A DNA stretch of 28,783 bases from a virus: IMG/VR virus record IMGVR_UViG_3300009181_000263, positions 1 to 28,783 of that record; one strand, 5' to 3'. Every line of letters starts with the position of its first letter. Position 1 is the first letter of the stretch. This document shows positions 7,946-24,584 of the stretch, in pieces. The position numbers were made by a program, and so were the translations under genes. The notes beneath the pieces were generated by a model. That model did not search any database and was not told the DNA's origin. It saw nothing but the letters and a program-made list of their open reading frames with translations.

Positions 7946-7966
7946 ATGTTAATTTTATTAAACATG
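7945..7966. repeat. Inverted repeat over the start of the RecE-like gene (possible operator)
   Basis: CATGTT at 7945-7950 and AACATG at 7961-7966 form a perfect 6-bp inverted repeat with a 10-base A/T centre. A third copy of the motif, CATGTTTAAT at 7871-7880, covers the helicase start, and its inverse ATTAAACATG is at 7957-7966. Both in-frame ATG candidates of the RecE-like gene (7946 and 7964) lie in the arms. A repressor site that controls both operons is plausible but unproven. Confidence 0.5.
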
Positions 7967-9145
7967 GACGAAATTAAATCTATATCAGATACAGAATACT
8001 TTGCTCATGCGGCTTTAAACGCATCAAAGTTAAAAAAATACATTAATAGCCCAGCTCGGGCCATTTACGACGAATTTAAAGGCTCTAAGGCTACATTACT
8101 AGGCAGTCTTGTTCACTGTTTAGTTTTCGAAGCAGATCAAGTTATTAAAAGATACGTGGCTGAGCCTAAAAAAGTTCTGCCCGAAATGCTAACTTTGCCA
8201 GAGCATGTAGTAATACAGAAGCCACTAGAAGAAGTGCTTCTGATAGAAGGAACGGTAATAGTTCCTAGCGAATTTATCACGACTAGCGGCACCGTAGCCG
8301 TTAAAAAACAAGCTCAATATCAGAGCTGGTGCGATACTTACCCGAACGCCATTTTTGTTCATTCAGAGAAGGAAGCTCTAGATCTGCTAATAGAGAGAGC
8401 TAGAGCCATCGGAGCGACTATTATCGGTAATTACAAACACCTTGTTAATGCTTGGGAGTATGAGCAAGCCGTTAAGGGAATCGCTATCCTTGACAGACCT
8501 AGCTATGCTAAAGCTTTATGGATTTTTAGATCAGTTAAAAAGCATAAAAATGCTAGAAAACTGTTATGGCACAAAGCTGGGAAGCCTGAACTGGCTTTCT
8601 TCGCTCAGGTTCCCGAGTTTAATAATGAGCTTTGCAAGGGGAAGCTTGATTATTATATTTCGACTAAAACCAATCAAGGAGAGGAGATCAACATGATCCT
8701 CGACTTAAAAACACTTGGACGCGATTCTCATATGAAATTAGAGCTAATGTCCGCCAACACCAGAGAAGCCACAGAGAATAAGCTCAGACTGGTTTTCGAG
8801 GATCTTGGCTATGATATGAGCTTAGCGTTCTACAATTTGCTGCATAAAGCGATGAAAGGCTCACCAGCTACGCATTTCATAATAATAGCGGTGCAAACGG
8901 ACAAGTATCCTTATGAAGTTTTTGAAATTAGGATTGATCCAGACTGGATCAGGCTTGGAGAGTTTAAAGTTATAAAACTTCACAAGCTTTATAAAAAGTG
9001 TTTAGAGACTGGTTTTTATCCTAAGATCGATCAACTCCAATGGAACGAAGATCTGGGCGACTGGGAGTTTATCAAAGATGGAATTAGCTTTTTAATTAAG
9101 CCGACTGAGAGAGCTATCAAAAAAATGGAGAACTTAAGATCATGA
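7946..9145 (+). CDS. RecE-like PDDEXK exonuclease
   Basis: 399 residues from ATG 7946 (393 from ATG 7964, which has the same ATTAAACATG context as the helicase start and may be the true one). The N-terminal part (residues 25-62: LNASKLKKYINSPARAIYDE, then LGSLVHCLVFE) matches the phage exodeoxyribonuclease VIII/RecE-like PDDEXK family (PF12684, DUF3799). The active site is GKLDYYI with D235, followed by ILDLKT with D253 and K255, and a Y-x-x-x-x-A-F-Y helix near 283-295. These enzymes chew one strand of a DNA duplex to leave single strands for annealing. The RecT-like partner lies four genes downstream in the same operon. No Shine-Dalgarno is visible at either start. Confidence 0.9.
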   Translation: MLILLNMDEIKSISDTEYFAHAALNASKLKKYINSPARAIYDEFKGSKATLLGSLVHCLVFEADQVIKRYVAEPKKVLPEMLTLPEHVVIQKPLEEVLLIEGTVIVPSEFITTSGTVAVKKQAQYQSWCDTYPNAIFVHSEKEALDLLIERARAIGATIIGNYKHLVNAWEYEQAVKGIAILDRPSYAKALWIFRSVKKHKNARKLLWHKAGKPELAFFAQVPEFNNELCKGKLDYYISTKTNQGEEINMILDLKTLGRDSHMKLELMSANTREATENKLRLVFEDLGYDMSLAFYNLLHKAMKGSPATHFIIIAVQTDKYPYEVFEIRIDPDWIRLGEFKVIKLHKLYKKCLETGFYPKIDQLQWNEDLGDWEFIKDGISFLIKPTERAIKKMENLRS

Positions 9146-9399
9146 GCGAAATGCCTGAATATTTTGAACGATTAAAAAATCTGATTTCTACTGAATTTAA
9201 AATAGATAAGTGGGTGCTGGATAAAGAATTAACATATTTTTTTTATAAAGAAGGCATCAAGTCAAGGGCAGATGAACTTGGTTCATTAATAGACGAAGCT
9301 AATGATATTTGCGAAGCTTTATCGGACAGCTTATCATCTATCGAAAACGCCACCAGCCGAATGAAAAGATTTCTAAAAACAAAAGGAGAAAACAAATAA
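9142..9399 (+). CDS. Small hypothetical protein between RecE-like and RecT-like genes
   Basis: 85 residues, helical and charged (ISTEFKIDKWVLDKELTYFF, then DELGSLIDEANDICEALSDS), ending in a basic KRFLKTKGENK. The start overlaps the exonuclease stop (ATGA) and has GGAG about 12 bases upstream. No family recognised. Position suggests an accessory recombination factor. Confidence 0.72.
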   Translation: MSEMPEYFERLKNLISTEFKIDKWVLDKELTYFFYKEGIKSRADELGSLIDEANDICEALSDSLSSIENATSRMKRFLKTKGENK

Positions 9400-9693
9400 A
9401 TGACAATACGCACGACCGAAATGAATAAAGAGAATGGCTATAAGGGCCAAATCGCTAGATTAAAGAATGAAAATCAAAAGCTAAAATCTGATCTAGAAAA
9501 GCTAGGACTTGAAATGCTGCCAGATGCAATCAATGAAAGCGAGGCACAGTCTTCCATCAGAAGCCTTAAAAGGTTCATGGAGAGGCTGATAGCACCGATC
9601 AATAAAGAAGAAGTGAAAATCAAGAATCCCGAGCTTGCAGCGTTTATTAATCAAACTCTTGCGGCTATTGATTTTGCGGGGGAGGTCGCTTAA
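9400..9693 (+). CDS. Hypothetical coiled-coil protein
   Basis: 97 residues with a good AGGAG Shine-Dalgarno. Residues about 14-40 (GQIARLKNENQKLKSDLEKL) have a leucine heptad typical of a short coiled coil; the remainder is helical (SSIRSLKRFMERLIAP). It starts immediately after the previous stop and its own TAA overlaps the next ATG. Possible oligomeric accessory protein of the recombination operon; no family recognised. Confidence 0.7.
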   Translation: MTIRTTEMNKENGYKGQIARLKNENQKLKSDLEKLGLEMLPDAINESEAQSSIRSLKRFMERLIAPINKEEVKIKNPELAAFINQTLAAIDFAGEVA

Positions 9694-9965
9694 TGCCAGC
9701 GATAGACAACGCTATTGCTAGCTTTAAAGCGGCCTTAACCGAAACATTAGCAGACGCTGTTACAGTGGGAGACGTAGTAGAAAAGATCGGGGAATCTCAT
9801 TTAGAGCTAATTGAAATTGCAGCAAAGCTGGCAGCTCTATCTAGGGGACAGCCATTCGAAGAAGTTAATTCAATAGAGTTATGTTTCGGAAGCGGCGTAC
9901 ATATGTTCGAATTAAAAGTTAAAAAAATACAAAAGGAAAATACAAACAATGAATCAAAATTATAA
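9693..9965 (+). CDS. Small hypothetical protein before the RecT-like gene
   Basis: 90 residues with a strong GGGGGAGG Shine-Dalgarno. The N-terminal two thirds are helical and acidic (AIASFKAALTETLADAVTVG), followed by a short strand region (SIELCFGSGVHMFELKVKKI). Its last 17 bases overlap the RecT-like gene. No known domain is seen. Confidence 0.7.
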   Translation: MPAIDNAIASFKAALTETLADAVTVGDVVEKIGESHLELIEIAAKLAALSRGQPFEEVNSIELCFGSGVHMFELKVKKIQKENTNNESKL

Positions 9966-10812
9966 CCAGCCTAAAGGCACAGCCCTCGCTAAACCAGCCC
10001 AGAAGGCGACTTTAGCTAAAAATTTCTTTGCTGAAAATACCAACGAGAGCGAAATCCTGCAAACTCACTTTCAAGCATTTGCGGATGATGCAAGATCGCT
10101 TAATATACAAGTCACGCTGCCGCAGTTAGTTTCGCGAGTTCGCACCATCGTAAATAATGACGGCTCAGAAGAAACAACTATTGAAGCAGCAGTCGAAGCT
10201 GCAAAGCTAAGCCTAATCAGAGGCGTAGAAGCGAACGAGGTCTGCATAATCAGCAATAAACCAGCTTTGACTAAGCCCGCATTACTTAAGCTTGCTAACA
10301 GAGCTTTCCAGCAAAGCGGAGCAGCGATCTCTTACGAGATTCAATTCTATGGAGCTTCTGGCGAACCAACGACCGATAAAAACGTAATAGATTCGGCGAG
10401 TTGCACTATTAGTGCAAAGGTCGGCACAAAGGCCACAGGTATATTCAGCGGCTTTGCTGGAGAAATTCTTGAATATAAAGGAATGAAAGCTTTTTGGGAT
10501 AGATATAAAGGACGCAACACTCACGATAAAAGAGGCGTATTGACGGACATGGCTCTAAGATCTGCGATCAGAACCTATTTTCCTGAAGTCTTAGCTAACT
10601 CTCAATTTGCCGATGAGCTTGAGCTTCATGAAGCGATTGAAGCTCAAGTTTCAAAGCCAGTGCCAGCTATAGCTTCATCAGCTGATTTATTACTGGATGA
10701 AGATGAGCCAGCAGCGGCGATCGAGGAAGTCGAAATATCTGAACCTGAAGAGCCTGAAGCAGAGCAAACTGCTGAAGATGATGAGAAAATAGACTTCGAA
10801 GGAGTAATTTAA
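9949..10812 (+). CDS. RecT-like single-strand annealing protein with acidic tail
   Basis: 287 residues. The core (about 35-235) has the features of a RecT-type annealing protein: an early helix with a VEAAKLSLIRGVEANE stretch (about 82-97, comparable to the AAxLGLxPG region of RecT), a central beta region and the conserved late segment YKGMKAFWDRYKG ... LTDMALRSAIRTYFPE (about 176-213). The last 45 residues are strongly acidic and end in DDEKIDFEGVI, recalling the acidic-plus-hydrophobic tip of SSB proteins. Family role: anneal complementary single strands made by the partner exonuclease. It shares the operon with the RecE-like gene. Subfamily assignment is moderate because the core is divergent. 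Confidence 0.75.
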   Translation: MNQNYNQPKGTALAKPAQKATLAKNFFAENTNESEILQTHFQAFADDARSLNIQVTLPQLVSRVRTIVNNDGSEETTIEAAVEAAKLSLIRGVEANEVCIISNKPALTKPALLKLANRAFQQSGAAISYEIQFYGASGEPTTDKNVIDSASCTISAKVGTKATGIFSGFAGEILEYKGMKAFWDRYKGRNTHDKRGVLTDMALRSAIRTYFPEVLANSQFADELELHEAIEAQVSKPVPAIASSADLLLDEDEPAAAIEEVEISEPEEPEAEQTAEDDEKIDFEGVI

Positions 10813-11004
10813 ATGACTGGAGACGCTGAAAAAAGCTTCCTAACAGTAAAAGAAGCGGCATATCGACTAGACGTGCCGCCTTCCACTGTTTACGGCTGGA
10901 TCAGAAAAAATAATTTTCCTGATCTAAAGTTTAAAAAGATTGGCGGTAAATTAATCATAGCTAAGCCAGACGTGGATAAGGTTATAAATAAACTTAAGGA
11001 ATAG
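10813..11004 (+). CDS. Excisionase/MerR-like helix-turn-helix protein
   Basis: 63 residues, a single small winged-helix DNA-binding domain (PF12728, HTH_17 type). FLTVKEAAYRLDVPPSTVYGWI (10-31) is the helix-turn-helix and the KKIGGKLIIAKPDVDKVI part forms the wing and last helix. Such proteins act as excisionases or transcription switches. A strong AGGAG lies about 10 bases before the ATG. It follows the RecT-like stop directly and is two bases before the metalloprotease gene. No integrase is in the window, so an excision role cannot be supported; regulation of this operon is equally possible. Confidence 0.88.
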   Translation: MTGDAEKSFLTVKEAAYRLDVPPSTVYGWIRKNNFPDLKFKKIGGKLIIAKPDVDKVINKLKE

Positions 11005-11006
11005 CA

Positions 11007-11945
11007 ATGGCCAATAAACAACCTTATCTTACTGGTAAATACGCTAGAACTCTAGCCAGCACTATAGTTCTAGATTCCAGATATCCACTGGATCTAAGAA
11101 ACTCGATTAAGACATTCCTGAGCCAATATAAGAACTATGAATATATCGAAATAGATCTTACAGAGATCCCAGAACTTGGCAACGCAACGATTCAGAATGG
11201 CATAGGATTCTTTCAGCTTGCTAGCTCACTAGGCGACCGTCCTATAGCTGGATATACATACTTTATCGGCGTAGGACAGCAAGACGCTTCAGATCCACAG
11301 ACGACACTATATCCAGCCTTCGTAGCTGTTCAGCCAGCCATCGATAAAGTCATCATTCACGAATGGGGACATGGCATAGGACTAGGACACGAGGATAACG
11401 CCTATCGCTGGATCAATTTTAAAAGAATATGGCGAAGTGAACAGTCCTATTTTTATGGAAATATCTCAGGCGGCGGCTTCATGGCTTACGGCGGTAAAGA
11501 GTTTAATCCATCAGATGATTTCGCCATCAAAAAATTATTAAATCCTTCCTTTCCTGCTGCCACTGTATCGGGACAGATCAAGATCGGCACTGAGTTTCTT
11601 AAAGGTGCTAATTTGATTTTTATAGACGTTGAAAAGAAATTTAATTCAACGCCAAAACCACTACCAATAAGACACGCCGCGATAATAGACATGCTTGGAG
11701 CTGCCGATGGCAGCTTTAAAATTCACGTACCTAAAGGTAAATACTGGATCATGCTTGTGCCGATAGACAACTATAGTCGTCCGACTCACGGTACTTGGTC
11801 TTTAGCCGATTCTCAGATCAAGGATTTGACTGAGCCGCTTTTTTTAACCAAAAACTTAAAGTTCTTCAGAGAAGAAGAACGCAAGGGAATTATAGAGCTT
11901 GCTGCTGGAGATAATTTAATTATAAATCCGCAGGTGCGAATTTGA
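11007..11945 (+). CDS. Metzincin-type zinc metalloprotease with carboxypeptidase-regulatory-like domain
   Basis: 312 residues. The zinc motif HEWGHGIGLGH (118-128) fits HExxHxxGxxH exactly, with ligands H118, H122 and H128 and base E119. A likely Met-turn follows at GGFMAYGG (M159), so this is a metzincin-like fold. Residues about 185-262 (VSGQIKIGTEFLKGANLIF ... DGSFKIHVPKGKYWIMLVP) read like a carboxypeptidase regulatory-like beta-sandwich. No signal peptide or membrane helix is visible, so the product would act in the cytoplasm, be packaged, or be freed at lysis. It is in the recombination operon, 2 bases after the HTH gene, with AAGGAAT as ribosome binding site. Its substrate is unknown. 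It could be a host- or regulator-cleaving factor, a cargo gene, or a prohead-type protease, though the last is unlikely by family. Confidence 0.85.
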   Translation: MANKQPYLTGKYARTLASTIVLDSRYPLDLRNSIKTFLSQYKNYEYIEIDLTEIPELGNATIQNGIGFFQLASSLGDRPIAGYTYFIGVGQQDASDPQTTLYPAFVAVQPAIDKVIIHEWGHGIGLGHEDNAYRWINFKRIWRSEQSYFYGNISGGGFMAYGGKEFNPSDDFAIKKLLNPSFPAATVSGQIKIGTEFLKGANLIFIDVEKKFNSTPKPLPIRHAAIIDMLGAADGSFKIHVPKGKYWIMLVPIDNYSRPTHGTWSLADSQIKDLTEPLFLTKNLKFFREEERKGIIELAAGDNLIINPQVRI

Positions 11946-12166
11946 ATAATGAGTTAAATTTTCAAAAGCAAAGAATTAATCGCGAGTGGTGTGATTTCTT
12001 GCTAAATGCAAACATTCACCGATCCTTCTCAAAGCTAGAGCATCCATCTTTGAGAAGGATGCGTAAGGATATAATTTTTCAAAACATTATAAAAAACGAC
12101 ACCGAACCAGCAAGCCCAAGCCTTGACAGGATTTACACCATCGGCGACCAGCAAGCACCTGAATAG
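11942..12166 (+). CDS. Doubtful small ORF at the convergent end
   Basis: 74 codons beginning with TTG 11942, overlapping the protease stop by 4 bases. There is no good Shine-Dalgarno. Its last 132 bases lie opposite the DUF1353 gene, and the perfect hairpin at 12022-12060 falls in its middle. Residues are basic and helical at first (NFQKQRINREWCDFLL). Only the first 30 residues or so are free of overlap with a better gene. It may be real but the evidence is thin. Confidence 0.3.
   Translation: MNNELNFQKQRINREWCDFLLNANIHRSFSKLEHPSLRRMRKDIIFQNIIKNDTEPASPSLDRIYTIGDQQAPE
12022..12060. terminator. Hairpin at the convergent operon boundary
   Basis: Perfect 13-bp stem: ATCCTTCTCAAAG (12022-12034) pairs with CTTTGAGAAGGAT (12048-12060), with a 13-base loop. 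On the minus strand the loop holds the TAG stop of the DUF1353 gene (12037-12035). It lies where the rightward recombination operon meets the leftward late operon, so a two-way terminator or RNA-end protector is plausible. No U-tract follows on either strand, so classical intrinsic termination is uncertain. Confidence 0.6.
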
Positions 12167-12463
12167 TCCATGAGTGAACAGCTGATTAGCTTTCTTTTTG
12201 CAGCACAGATAATCATGCACCAGAGCCGCTCGCAACGTGTTTCCCTCGAATGGCTCACCGATTAAAGGCTGCACCAGTGAAGGGATGCTCATTCCATCAG
12301 AGATATAATCCATTGGAACCTTAACGAAGTGAGGCTTAGCGAAGTGCCTCATATTAAGGTATAGATTTTTCTTCAGTGCAACGCGAAGCTTATTATCCGA
12401 AAAAAAGAAATAGCAATAATCTTGAGCATTGAATTTTCTTAATCGTTTCGATAATTGGATCAT
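12035..12463 (-). CDS. DUF1353 phage protein
   Basis: 142 residues. VPMDYISDGMSIPSLVQPL (49-67), EGNTLRAALVHDYL (73-86) and a late segment with LLVADGVNPVKAWACWFGV (105-123) match DUF1353 (PF07087), a small phage protein usually found near the baseplate, fibre and lysis genes. Its biochemical role is not known. It is the last gene of the leftward late operon, directly after the probable fibre gene, and its stop codon is in the loop of the terminator-like hairpin. No lysozyme or holin gene is recognisable beside it in this window. Confidence 0.88.
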   Translation of the reverse strand: MIQLSKRLRKFNAQDYCYFFFSDNKLRVALKKNLYLNMRHFAKPHFVKVPMDYISDGMSIPSLVQPLIGEPFEGNTLRAALVHDYLCCKKKANQLFTHGLFRCLLVADGVNPVKAWACWFGVVFYNVLKNYILTHPSQRWML

Positions 12464-12464
12464 T

Positions 12465-13124
12465 TTATGATTCGACTGGTCTGCGGTAAACTCTGAAAAC
12501 AGAGAATGCGTCTAAAGATATGGACTCATTGTTATTATTGAGTTCTAGCGAAATCGTGGCAGGGCTTGCGTTTTTGGCTATATTAGGGAACTTAAAAACG
12601 CCAAACACTGGCAGAACTGACGTAAGAACACCACTTCCAGTATTTAGTCCTAAGCCATAAGGGAACGCAAGCCCAGTCGTCACGCTGATCGCTGAACATT
12701 TCCAGCGAATCTGCGGATAACTTGAGCCTCCAACATTTCGCTGAGATGTAATTTTTAATTCCATTTCGACAAAATAGTCGAAATTTCCACTGTCACTGCT
12801 CCCATCTGTGACAGTAAAAGCCGTGACAGCCTGATAACCAGTAGCACCCGAAGGCGTAAAAGCAGTGTTGTCTTTTATTGCAACTCCGATAAACTTACGC
12901 CCACCATTATTAATTAAATTATTGATCGCTGTTAATAACTGGGTTTTATTTGTCCCCGTATTGTCGCAGACTCCGCCGCCCCCCTCCACTAAGTTCACCA
13001 GCTCTTCTATGCTATTAACATTCAGGTGCAGAGCTTCGATCTTAGTACCATTGCTCACGCCTGTGATCTTATCTACAAACTTGCCGCCTGAATTATTTAA
13101 ATTCGATATATTCTTAATTACCAT
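12465..13124 (-). CDS. Probable fibre or virion appendage protein
   Basis: 219 residues, rich in Asn, Gly, Ser and Thr, with mostly beta-strand character after an N-terminal part containing a GGGG run (52-55). No cysteine cluster or enzyme motif is seen. It lies downstream of the gp48-like baseplate gene and the coiled-coil protein, where Mu-like phages encode their tail fibres, and it is larger than the assembly chaperones found there. The start overlaps the preceding gene by 11 bases. Fibre role is inferred from composition and place only. Confidence 0.65.
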   Translation of the reverse strand: MVIKNISNLNNSGGKFVDKITGVSNGTKIEALHLNVNSIEELVNLVEGGGGVCDNTGTNKTQLLTAINNLINNGGRKFIGVAIKDNTAFTPSGATGYQAVTAFTVTDGSSDSGNFDYFVEMELKITSQRNVGGSSYPQIRWKCSAISVTTGLAFPYGLGLNTGSGVLTSVLPVFGVFKFPNIAKNASPATISLELNNNNESISLDAFSVFRVYRRPVES

Positions 13125-13506
13125 TCGAGTTCACCTCATCATTAATTCTAGATATCTCTTCCTGATTGAGTTTAATTTGCTGTTTTTTTTCTTGCTTGAG
13201 TGTAATTAAATCACCCACTAGCGTTTCTGGCGTTTCTCCTTCAATCTTTTCAATCTCAGATTTTAACTTTTCAAACTCATCGAATTTCGCATAAAATTCA
13301 GTGGTGTAGTTCTCGCGAGAAACGATCTCGTCCATTTCTGCCTTAATTGCAGCTAGCTCGTTAAGTTTATCTTCAAGCTTAAATTCAGAAAGAGCCTCAA
13401 GCCTCTCATCAAGCTCTTCTATATCCCTTGCGAGGCTTCTATTCTCAGCTTCTAGCGAATCTATTATAGCTAAGTCTTTTTCTAATTTTTCGTTTTCGTC
13501 GTTCAT
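13114..13506 (-). CDS. Coiled-coil protein in the tail-fibre region
   Basis: 130 residues, almost wholly charged helix with heptad leucines and isoleucines (EKDLAIIDSLEAENRSLARD at 9-28, then further heptads through about residue 120) and no membrane segment. Good Shine-Dalgarno (AAGGAG). Located between the gp48-like gene and the probable fibre. It could be a fibre shaft component, an assembly helper or a scaffold, and I cannot distinguish these. Confidence 0.7.
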   Translation of the reverse strand: MNDENEKLEKDLAIIDSLEAENRSLARDIEELDERLEALSEFKLEDKLNELAAIKAEMDEIVSRENYTTEFYAKFDEFEKLKSEIEKIEGETPETLVGDLITLKQEKKQQIKLNQEEISRINDEVNSNGN

Positions 13507-13515
13507 ATTTTCTCC

Positions 13516-14115
13516 TTATATTAAATCGAAATCCAATAAAACCCAAGCAGGCACCATCCTGTTAAGCAAACAAAAAAAACCAAACGGCAGCGTTGATGTA
13601 TATAACAGGCTCTCGCCGCATTCAGCTTCGCCGCACTCAGCTGTTAATGAGCCATAAGGGACTAACTGAGTAGTTAAGCTAGTCTCGCCGCATTCGGCTT
13701 CGCCGCACTCGGCGTAAGTTACAGCCTCATAATCTAAAAGCCGCAAACCTAAATGCCATGCCGCTTTACGAGTTAAAAGAACCGTACCAACATCAAATAA
13801 ATTAGCGATTTCTTGGATAAGCTCTTGCTTGAAAGGTTTTTTTGCTGTAAATAAAGCTAAAACCTCTGCCCTTGCGGCTTCAATAGTATTAGGCTCGCCA
13901 CAACGGGGAAGGAAAAAATCTTCTTGCCACAAATCAAGGCTATTAGTGGTGTTTATCGGATCAGAATCTTCTCCGACTCTCAAGGCGTAATCCTCAAGCT
14001 CACTTAAAACCGCAGCTATCGATTCATAAAGCTTAGCTGTATTACTGTCTTTATCAGCCTCCCAAATTGGCCCTCGTTCAAGCAGGGATATAAATGAATC
14101 TAATAACTTTGCCAC
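13516..14115 (-). CDS. Baseplate protein, Mu gp48/YmfQ-like (DUF2313)
   Basis: 199 residues matching the Mu gp48-like wedge or fibre-connector family (PF10076). LLERGPIW (11-18) and the following helical region that splits the protein into halves fit, and the C-terminus ends with LLNRMVPAWVLLDFDL as in the family's P-A-x-x-x-x-x-F ending. The family's 'AG-x-x-x-AGD-x-L' type element appears here as AECGEAECGE and is present twice (about residues 134-143 and 158-167), with the DNA repeat at 13611-13639 and 13683-13711. It overlaps the gp47-like gene by 16 bases, in the Mu order. Confidence 0.85.
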   Translation of the reverse strand: MAKLLDSFISLLERGPIWEADKDSNTAKLYESIAAVLSELEDYALRVGEDSDPINTTNSLDLWQEDFFLPRCGEPNTIEAARAEVLALFTAKKPFKQELIQEIANLFDVGTVLLTRKAAWHLGLRLLDYEAVTYAECGEAECGETSLTTQLVPYGSLTAECGEAECGESLLYTSTLPFGFFCLLNRMVPAWVLLDFDLI

Positions 14116-15203: not shown

Positions 15204-15647
15204 CTAAATAAATTGAACCTCCAGCTCGTTCCCGTATGGGTTTATTTTAATATTATCGCCAGTTGCCTCATCCCACAAGCTTTTAAAGCGATTATCTGCC
15301 GACTTGAAAATCTTAATTGTAAGCTTAGCCTTATCATCAGAGGCATCATAAGCCTGAACTTCTACATCGGAAGCGATGCCTTCATTAATCATCCACTCTA
15401 AAGCCTCTTCTGCTGATAGTTTCATTTCAGCTAAAGTTTCTTGCGTTTTTGGCTGGTTTTTATAAGCCCAAAGACTTGAACCCATGTCAAGCCCAGTCCT
15501 AGAGCCTGCATTATTTCTAGTCTGCCCTTCGACTTCTTTATTCGTAAGCAAACTAACAAGAACCATAGAAGCAAGTCCACTTCCTGTAAGGAACTTTTCA
15601 AAGTCAAAATTTAAATTCTGATCGTATTTTTTAAGCAGATCGCTCAT
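15204..15647 (-). CDS. Mu gp46-like baseplate wedge protein
   Basis: 147 residues. DMGSSLWAYKNQPKTQETLAE (about 54-74) followed by AEEALEWMINEGIASDVEV (78-96) matches the Mu gp46 family (PF07409), where a 'GS-x-LW' and 'AL-x-W-L/M' pair is conserved. The protein resembles gp25/W-type wedge subunits that start sheath assembly. It overlaps the M15-like gene by 4 bases (ATGA) and directly precedes the gp47-like gene, in canonical order. Confidence 0.87.
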   Translation of the reverse strand: MSDLLKKYDQNLNFDFEKFLTGSGLASMVLVSLLTNKEVEGQTRNNAGSRTGLDMGSSLWAYKNQPKTQETLAEMKLSAEEALEWMINEGIASDVEVQAYDASDDKAKLTIKIFKSADNRFKSLWDEATGDNIKINPYGNELEVQFI

Positions 15648-16111
15648 ACAGTGAAGTCCTCATCTGGAACGCCATCACCGACGTGATTAAAGCCCAATCT
15701 TCTATGTAAATAAGTTTCCCCTTGAACAAAATCGGAGAAGAAGCTGTGCAGCTCTTCCTTCGTCATATCTGGGCTAGTGAAGTCATTTGCTGAAATAATC
15801 CTATCAAATAAACCTTGAAGAACAGTTCTCCATATATGCAGCGAGTTAGGCGAAGCACCGTCAATCGTTGCATTATATTCTCTAGAACGCCACCCAGATG
15901 TAATTTTCAGGCGGACACGCCTTCCAGTCCTCATTACTAGATAATCTGAAAAGGCTTGAGCATAGCCCATGCGATAGCAGCCGATTAATAAGATCCCAAG
16001 AGAAACGTCCACCACTCTGTGAATGATCTCTCCCAGTGTAAAGTTGCCAGAACGCAATCTTAGAGCTAATTCCGTGATATTAGGCGGCAGCTTAAAGGAA
16101 AAAATATCCAT
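15644..16111 (-). CDS. M15-like (D-Ala-D-Ala carboxypeptidase/endolysin-like) protein, active site altered
   Basis: 155 residues. KITSGWRSREYNATIDGASPN (69-89) with SLH (90-92) is the signature of phage M15A peptidases (PF08291), which cleave peptidoglycan peptides. In the family the zinc motif is S-x-H-x6-D; here H92 is present but position 99 is Gln and no Asp stands seven residues after the His. The C-terminal HRRLGFNHVGDG (136-147) could supply the last His. It may be inactive, or use another ligand such as D103. It is inserted between gp45- and gp46-like genes, where Mu has no gene. It is preceded by a 28-base gap and a TATAAT with no Shine-Dalgarno. Confidence 0.65.
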   Translation of the reverse strand: MDIFSFKLPPNITELALRLRSGNFTLGEIIHRVVDVSLGILLIGCYRMGYAQAFSDYLVMRTGRRVRLKITSGWRSREYNATIDGASPNSLHIWRTVLQGLFDRIISANDFTSPDMTKEELHSFFSDFVQGETYLHRRLGFNHVGDGVPDEDFTV

Positions 16112-22655: not shown

Positions 22656-24584
22656 TTACTTCTGAGTATTCAGTGCTGCTATAGCTGCTTGATCTGAAGC
22701 CTTTTTCAGTAGCCCTTGAGGATCTTCAAGCTGCACTGCGACCGCATCAGCAAAATCATTTAAGTCAATGTCTAAAGCCGTAGTTTTGAAGTCGTTGATG
22801 TTAGTTACCGCGGTCGCTTGCACTGCCACGATATCCGCCTTAACCGTCTGAACTGCTTGATTGAATGTGCTTCTAGAGCTTACAGCCGCATCGAGATTAT
22901 TTAGTCTTGAATCATTCGTTAAGAGTGGATTAGTCGGTCTTGCTAAGACTGAAGACTCTTTAGCCGTGCCGAAGCTTGTTAGCTGAGCTTGAATGTCGCT
23001 AGCCGAAAGATCATTTAAGGCATCTATATCCGTAATTCTAGCTAAGCCAGCTTGAAGCTCACTTACAGCCGAGGCTCCAACTGCGTCCGCATCTATAGCT
23101 CCAGTCGTGAAATCTCTTACTATTACGCTATCGTTGTTCGGATCAAAATCATTCAGGGCATCTATTTTAGTATTAGCTGTGCCGATTCCTGCGTTATCTG
23201 GAGCCGTATAACTCGCAGAAGCTAATCTGCTAGAGATCGTCGCGTTAAGATTATCCTTAATTCTCTTACCTATTGAATTAGGAATCGAAAAATCAGAATC
23301 AAGCCTGCTCCATACAGCATCAACGATTGCCGTGATCGGCATATTCGAGGCGTCAAATACAATGTTGTCGACCGCATTCGCTATAGCCGCGATGATAGCC
23401 CCGCCATCGGCTTCATTTAGTAATCTGCTTTCAACTGCCTCAGCTATAACTAAAACGGTGTCATTCGCTAATCTTACTAGCTCTGCTTCGTTATCAAACG
23501 TGCTTCTAGAACTTATCGTTGCATCTAAATTATCTAGCTTATTTGCTCTGCCCGTGGTTAGCTTGGAGTTTAGAGAAGTAACTCCTGCATTATCAGGAGC
23601 TGTATAACCAGCTGTAGAAAGCCTAGTAGACACAGCCGCGTCAAGATTAGCTAATCTGGCGTCTGTTGCTAAAACTGGATTAGTCGGTATAGCTCTAGCT
23701 GTACTCTCAGAAGCCCTGCTGGAGATCCGTGTATCAATGTTATTTAAGCGACTATCGGTCGTTAATAATGGATTTACTGGTATTGCATTAACGCTAACCT
23801 GTGTTGATCTGCTGGAGATAGCCGCATCTAAATTATCTAGATTATTCGCTCTGCCAGTGGTTAGCTTAGAGTTCAGAGAAGTAACTCCTGCATTATCTGG
23901 AGCCGTATAGCCAGCCGTGGAGAGCCTGCTAGACACAGCCGCATCTAAATTATCTAGATTATTCGCTCTGCCAGTGGTTAGCTTAGAGTTCAGAGAAGTA
24001 ACTCCTGCATTGTCTGGAGCCGTATAGCCAGCCGTGGAGAGCCTGCTAGACACAGCCGCGTCCAAGTTATTTAGTCTCGCATCTGTTGCTAGAACTGGAT
24101 TAGTCGGTATAGCTCTCGCCGTGCTTTCTGAAGCTCTACTAGAAATCCTTGTATCAATGTTATTTAAGCGACTATCGGTCGTTAATAATGGATTTACAGG
24201 GATCGCCGTAACGCTCGCCTGTGTTGATCTGCTGGAGATAGCCGCATCTAGATTGGTTAATCTGGCATCCGTGTTAAGTAAAATATTGCTTCTAATGTTA
24301 GAGACACTCGTCTGCGAAGATCTGCTGGAGATCGTTTCATCAAGATTATTTATTCGCTCTTTAGATCCATTCCAGTGCAAAGTTCCTGCACCCAAAATCG
24401 TTGATCCATTTTTAATAAAAACAGTATAATCGCCAGCTGCTAATCCGCTAATAGTGCCATAGTAATGACCAGTCGTGCCTCGCTCTGTGAGAGATTGAGA
24501 TGCAAGTATTACAGAGCCGCCGTCGACAACATCATAAGTCAATGTTAAGCCAGATGATCCTAGATAGTTGATTTCGTTTGACAT
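22656..24584 (-). CDS. Modular repeat virion protein (31- and 39-residue repeats)
   Basis: 642 residues. The first 80 form a beta-sandwich-like domain (HYYGTISGLAAGDYTVFIKN, GTLHWNGSKE) common at the base of phage appendage proteins. Residues about 85-350 are repeats in two lengths that end in LDAAxSSR: a 31-residue unit (core RAIPTNPVLATDARLNNLDA) and a 39-residue unit starting LSTAGYTAPDNAGVTSLNSK. Their order is 31, 31+31, 39, 39, 31+31, 39. A single 31-like unit recurs near residue 570. The rest is Asp/Asn/Ala-rich helix. It sits immediately upstream of the sheath gene. A fibre, whisker or neck appendage fits; host-binding is inference. Confidence 0.72.
   Translation of the reverse strand: MSNEINYLGSSGLTLTYDVVDGGSVILASQSLTERGTTGHYYGTISGLAAGDYTVFIKNGSTILGAGTLHWNGSKERINNLDETISSRSSQTSVSNIRSNILLNTDARLTNLDAAISSRSTQASVTAIPVNPLLTTDSRLNNIDTRISSRASESTARAIPTNPVLATDARLNNLDAAVSSRLSTAGYTAPDNAGVTSLNSKLTTGRANNLDNLDAAVSSRLSTAGYTAPDNAGVTSLNSKLTTGRANNLDNLDAAISSRSTQVSVNAIPVNPLLTTDSRLNNIDTRISSRASESTARAIPTNPVLATDARLANLDAAVSTRLSTAGYTAPDNAGVTSLNSKLTTGRANKLDNLDATISSRSTFDNEAELVRLANDTVLVIAEAVESRLLNEADGGAIIAAIANAVDNIVFDASNMPITAIVDAVWSRLDSDFSIPNSIGKRIKDNLNATISSRLASASYTAPDNAGIGTANTKIDALNDFDPNNDSVIVRDFTTGAIDADAVGASAVSELQAGLARITDIDALNDLSASDIQAQLTSFGTAKESSVLARPTNPLLTNDSRLNNLDAAVSSRSTFNQAVQTVKADIVAVQATAVTNINDFKTTALDIDLNDFADAVAVQLEDPQGLLKKASDQAAIAALNTQK
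23518..24240 (-). repeat. Coding repeat array, pattern A-B-B-A-B
   Basis: In transcription order: A (24240-24055, 186 bp), B (24054-23938, 117 bp), B (23937-23821, 117 bp), A (23820-23635, 186 bp), B (23634-23518, 117 bp). The two adjacent B units differ at a single base by eye, while the third differs at many mostly silent positions, which points to a recent tandem duplication. The A units share runs of over 40 identical bases inside otherwise diverged sequence. Confidence 0.9.

Follow-up and report, generated by a model that had tools for sequence, protein, structure and literature searches.

A conserved gene in a RecE-type operon of an uncultured phage encodes a probable metzincin-type metalloprotease

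Eukaryotic viruses routinely use proteases against immunity; few phage proteases are known to act on host proteins, and according to a 2025 review immune sensing through viral-protease cleavage is still unknown in phages and bacteria (PMC12409349). In jumbo phages, zincins of the SprT-like and ArdC-like kinds have been proposed to cut host proteins (PMC7824862), and Mtz of Listeria, a metzincin of phage origin, enhances lysis (PMC8235301). The window analyzed here is a 28.8-kb virus record (IMGVR_UViG_3300009181_000263) from a bacterial virus known only from environmental DNA, and it contains a gene for a 312-aa protein that can be compared with both. Like the jumbo-phage zincins the product is a candidate phage zinc peptidase, but those proteins belong to other zincin families and no metzincin motif of the M159 type is claimed for them. 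As with Mtz, a metzincin motif is found in a phage-derived locus beside regulators, whereas Mtz is secreted, paired with a TIMP-like lipoprotein and prophage-borne beside holin-lysin genes. Being small, lacking a propeptide and encoded alongside recombination genes, such a metzincin would be a compact and testable candidate for a host-directed phage protease. The gene is kept in one other viral contig, L002, with 98% identity. The features of the locus, with the evidence for each, are as follows.

7946-9145, plus strand: RecE/exonuclease VIII-type gene, first of the operon (phrog_412, E 7e-36; DUF3799, E 3.7e-14)
9949-10812, plus strand: 287-aa protein in the RecT position (no match at useful E)
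10813-11004, plus strand: 63-aa HTH_17/excisionase-like DNA-binding protein (Pfam, E 1.4e-9; NCBIfam excise, E 1.5e-7)
10996-11000, plus strand: ribosome-binding site AAGGA ahead of the protease ATG (sequence; also in L002)
11007-11945, plus strand: probable metzincin-type metalloprotease gene, ATG start, 312 aa (purifying selection)
11007-11558, plus strand: predicted catalytic domain, residues 1-184 (AlphaFold2 with a 19-row alignment; weak metzincin profile matches)
11358-11390, plus strand: zinc-binding motif HEWGHGIGLGH, residues 118-128 (sequence; chance expectation)
11481-11483, plus strand: candidate Met-turn methionine M159 in SGGGFMAYGG (sequence; conserved in L002)
11556-11942, plus strand: C-terminal beta domain, about residues 184-312, plausibly carboxypeptidase-regulatory-like (hhalign, shuffles, frame ranking)

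The sole HExxH of the predicted proteome is that of HEWGHGIGLGH in the protease ORF. The fit to HExxHxxGxxH noted in the first-pass annotation is far above chance, the expectation being 5.8e-5 in the 9371 aa of the predicted proteome and 8.9e-6 in the protease ORF at its own composition. M159, previously named as the Met-turn residue, is located 31 residues beyond the third His of the motif and is a candidate for that role. Of the changes that separate the gene from its only close homologue, L002, 10 are synonymous and 6 non-synonymous (raw dN/dS 0.17, P 6e-4), and the residues of the motif and the Met region are identical in both. The gene is real, conserved and under purifying selection. Its base composition and codon use are like those of the rest of the phage, results indicating that it is not a recent capture. 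The protein has no propeptide and no cysteine. Simple hydropathy, a crude test, revealed no N-terminal hydrophobic segment (highest 11-residue value in that region 1.08, where the working threshold was 2), in agreement with the earlier statement that a signal peptide is absent.

The weak profile matches of the catalytic part were all to metzincins (Reprolysin_2 to _5 of M12B, M10, M57, M66, a 'Met-zincin' DUF and Astacin of M12A), with no match in the profile libraries reaching its cut-off. The M10 profile PF00413 scored 12.7 to 15 bits, below its cut-off of 24, and the Astacin profile PF01400 scored 10.9 bits (E 0.36), below its cut-off of 22.5. No match to M78 (ImmA/IrrE) was obtained even at E 10, whereas metzincin families appear. 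A profile built from 17 M10-like proteins scored 27.3 bits against the protease; however, 632 of 1000 shuffles that kept the active-site helix scored as high. Membership of the M10 family is not supported, because outside the active-site helix the protease resembles the profile no more than motif-kept shuffles do. The protease has HExxHxxGxxH and, in a low-confidence model, a comparable catalytic fold (Z about 7) in common with the matrixins of family M10, among them karilysin, MMP-9, MMP-11 and MMP-12, but it differs from them in reaching no Pfam M10 match at cut-off and in having no export signal, no cysteine and no MMP-type propeptide with a cysteine switch. Like the astacins of family M12A, for example myroilysin, it has a Glu following the third His and a candidate Met-turn resembling MxYG, but it has Gly-Leu where astacins have Gly-Phe in the motif and its Pfam Astacin match is sub-cut-off. 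Overall, assignment to the metzincin clan MA(M) is good, chiefly because the motif and M159 are present and the weak matches all point the same way, and assignment to any one metzincin family is not good. The metzincin-type active site proposed earlier is upheld by the intact motif and candidate Met; at the level of profiles the metzincin direction held and no family was reached at its cut-off.

Around the motif the protein has diverged strongly from every known metzincin, as might be the case for a non-proteolytic binding protein retaining a metzincin-like shape. Such a protein is considered very unlikely, as none of the key residues (three His, catalytic Glu, Gly and candidate Met) is lost, and L002 has them unchanged.

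AlphaFold2 run on a two-row alignment produced no usable fold (pLDDT 29.7). With a 19-row metzincin alignment (A5) the model was of low confidence (pLDDT 47.8, pTM 0.46), and residues 141-166, including M159, had pLDDT below 50. Alignment A5 was picked among several subsets by placement of the helix after the Met region, and alignments A3 and A4 were dropped for misplacing it, a choice by which the model leans towards metzincin. The M10 profile test revealed that an alignment of this kind is no evidence of homology outside the motif. The order of elements in the model, b1-aA-b2-b3-b4-b5-aB-aC followed by beta strands, is that of metzincins, in a model derived from an alignment that presupposes the fold. 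Thus, of the metzincin fold predicted in the first-pass annotation the element order was kept, but at low confidence; a fold devoid of the metzincin cleft, which would have spoken against that annotation, was not obtained. Comparison of the model by VIA-align ranked MMP catalytic domains, karilysin and archaemetzincin first with Z about 7, under the caution line of 8 given by the tool. The best recognizable Foldseek matches in the PDB were to astacins such as myroilysin (E about 0.1), and Foldseek also linked the model weakly to tail proteins of phages.

The C-terminal part had been read as a carboxypeptidase-regulatory beta domain at residues 185-262. Alignment with hhalign joined the phage protease to Planctomycetota proteins combining M10 and CarboxypepD_reg over residues 111-253 (92%). 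The beta part alone scored 13.9 bits against a Planctomycetota-derived profile, compared with a maximum of 3.2 in 2000 shuffles, and it was first among 3889 frames, yet just 2 bits over a chance frame. No Pfam CarboxypepD_reg match of the beta domain was found. These results moderately support the type of domain, for which a carboxypeptidase-regulatory-like fold is plausible from sequence comparison; the domain probably extends over 184-312 and not over the range given earlier.

The pattern HEWGHGxGLxH was present at 8 loci in genome_contigs, the useful one being L128 of Planctomycetota. In L128 and its relatives an active-site domain is followed by a regulatory-like beta domain, the order found in the phage protease. 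L128 has a clear Pfam match to M10 (E 1.4e-13), and its match to CarboxypepD_reg (E 1.4e-5) is under the bit cut-off. It differs from the phage protease in its length of 841 aa and an apparent N-terminal hydrophobic stretch, with about 28% identity in the matched part. Planctomycetota proteins combining M10 and CarboxypepD_reg are of a secreted type, and this nearest domain architecture is consistent with an extracellular cargo protease that would be freed without a signal at host lysis, digesting matrix or envelope proteins or helping lysis in the manner of Listeria Mtz, a real precedent. A hydrophobic N-terminus was also present in 61 of the 110 viral metzincins examined. We regard this explanation as unlikely, although less so than the other alternatives to a cytoplasmic protease, on account of the following: no export signal is detected by hydropathy, the gene lies among recombination genes and not beside the GH24-type endolysin of the phage, no lipoprotein partner of the kind paired with secreted Mtz was seen, and the phage-like composition and codon use argue against recent capture.

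The operon (7946-11945, plus strand) contains, in order, the RecE-type gene, three small genes with no known role, the 287-aa protein, the HTH gene and the protease gene. The RecE-type and HTH-type genes described earlier upstream of the protease were confirmed by the profile matches listed above. The label 'RecT-type' for 9949-10812 was not sustained, as no match at useful E was found in Pfam, PHROGs, NCBIfam, PADLOC or the PDB. Replication genes are on the minus strand to the left of the operon, and the virion genes (sheath, baseplate, hub and tape measure), also on the minus strand, converge on it from the right, in accordance with the transcription away from virion genes previously described. 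The phage has a contractile tail, and its sheath, hub and baseplate J-like genes are related to those of Mu-type tails. The gene order around the protease recurs in the second contig, the remainder of which encodes the terminase, the portal, a major head protein of the head-and-protease family and the GH24-type endolysin. Since the second contig overlaps the window at each end, the two together appear to span the whole map.

This arrangement bears on the possibility that the protease belongs to the virion, either packaged or attached to the tail, and enters the next host or is used on it. The weak matches of the model to tail proteins would fit such a role, as would the location of viral metzincins elsewhere among late genes; nevertheless, in both contigs the gene is on the strand opposite the virion genes and shares its operon with the RecE and HTH genes, and we consider a virion component quite unlikely. 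The L002 homologue is not late-located, contrary to what would be found if homologues were late-gene virion lysins.

The HTH gene ends 2 nt before the protease gene, which has its own ribosome-binding site, and is strongly conserved in comparison with L002 (raw dN/dS 0.02). This would fit an explanation of the antirepressor type, in which the protease cleaves a DNA-binding regulator, for instance the neighbouring HTH protein, and so acts in the manner of ImmA without being related to it. Little credence is given to this explanation, as the HTH protein consists of a 63-aa excisionase-like domain and nothing more, the protease has no M78 profile match, and neither an integrase nor a CI-type repressor was recognized among the genes screened.

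Several further observations were made. The HTH protein (10813-11004, plus strand) matches the MAD1 helix-turn-helix protein of the methylation-associated defence system (PADLOC, E 2.5e-9), a match that probably comes from the common excisionase-like domain. Identity to L002 falls sharply in 9693-10812, adjoining the protease gene, with 44% aa identity for a small gene and 83% nt identity for the 287-aa gene between flanks of 94-98%, which suggests a likely recombination or fast-evolving spot. A 74-aa frame with a TTG start (11942-12166, plus strand) overlaps the protease stop; its codon score is poor and its selection signal weak, and it is probably not a gene. An 18-nt inverted repeat (12022-12060, 89% complementary) is located at the convergent gene ends. 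It was rejected as a conserved terminator behind the protease gene, the repeat being missing in L002, where the left arm differs. Between baseplate genes, 15644-16111 (minus strand) encodes a Peptidase M15_3-like protein (Pfam, E 1.1e-4, just under cut-off), a candidate tail-associated peptidase as judged from this match. A 642-aa fibre-like protein of no clear family (22656-24584, minus strand) contains internal repeats, e.g. NLDAAVSSRLSTAGYTAPDNAGVTSLN. The head protein at 11816-13786 (plus strand) of L127 matches phrog_4523, comprised of combined major head and protease proteins (E 3.2e-57).

The tools detect the motif, the selection, the gene position and the clan-level similarity, whereas protease activity, early timing (from gene position only), a role for the beta domain and a target are inferred. 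The best-supported reading, a tentative one at somewhat less than an even chance, is an early metzincin-type protease, produced in the cytoplasm, with a host protein or a phage protein as its target; a cytoplasmic protease of this kind was among the suggestions of the first-pass annotation. Synthesis would take place in the host cytoplasm at an early stage of infection, from the operon of RecE-type and HTH genes. Residues H118, H122 and H128 would bind zinc, E119 would activate water, and the C-terminal beta domain would most likely hold or select the substrate. Since there is no propeptide and no cysteine switch, the enzyme would be active once folded and metal-loaded, and the early-type operon together with the lack of an export signal, propeptide or cysteine suggests activity in the cytoplasm. 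During infection it would most likely cut either a specific host protein, serving takeover or counter-defence, or a phage protein. The reading is consistent with the intact motif and candidate Met, the purifying selection, the weak matches to metzincins throughout and the element order of the model, with the distant relative in another uncultured phage described below, with the tight coupling to the HTH gene, with the RecE-type operon opposite the virion genes, found also in the second contig, and with the lack of a hydrophobic N-terminus and of cysteine; by analogy, the jumbo-phage zincins (PMC7824862) may serve as a precedent. Against it stand the similarity outside the active-site helix, which equals that of motif-kept shuffles, and the low-confidence fold model with its best Z under the caution line. 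Most studied metzincins are secreted, and an unexported metzincin would for that reason be unusual, which also counts against a cytoplasmic protease. That the protein represents a phage-specific metzincin family, made at the start of infection to cut a bacterial defence or control protein chosen by the beta domain, is a speculative and rather improbable proposal.

The distribution of the protease was evaluated with peptide patterns, which revealed close relatives only in L002 among viral contigs and none in genome_contigs, phages or plasmids. Foldseek identified a more distant relative, A0A6J5MAW5 (BFVD/UniProt), from an uncultured Caudovirales phage (E 7.7e-12, 38% identity over 320 columns). 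It is of comparable length (336 aa), and its presence in another uncultured phage speaks for a protein established in phages and against a one-off capture. No convincing relative was found among 369 genomes of the class of Thalassolituus, 392 of the phylum of a Planctomycetota genome or 388 of the phylum of an Akkermansiaceae genome, weak negatives from samples. The protease has no PADLOC match, and no description of this protease family was found in the literature. Viral relatives of the 287-aa protein were not found and the helicase has one distant viral relative besides that in the contig of L002; neighbour conservation is consequently comparable in L002 alone.

The first-pass annotation was wrong in regarding metzincins as unusual in phages, since two scans of viral contigs with metzincin-motif patterns gave at least 120 and at least 599 matches. 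Judged by these patterns, metzincin motifs are common in viral contigs and the protease of 11007-11945 is itself rare. Matches to HExGHGxGLGH[DE] in viral contigs were unrelated matrixins only, and the likeness to viral metzincins of 260-300 aa (L012 type) is limited to the motif. In each of four viral contigs (L009, L029, L090 and L124) two different metzincin genes lie close to each other, of which one has a long HExGHxxGLGHY domain and the other is shorter and M10-like. Six viral matrixins (L064, L168, L170, L171, L172 and L022) have, by eye, a peptidoglycan-binding-like N-terminal part before the HExGHxxGLGH domain, an architecture that is possibly lysin-like.
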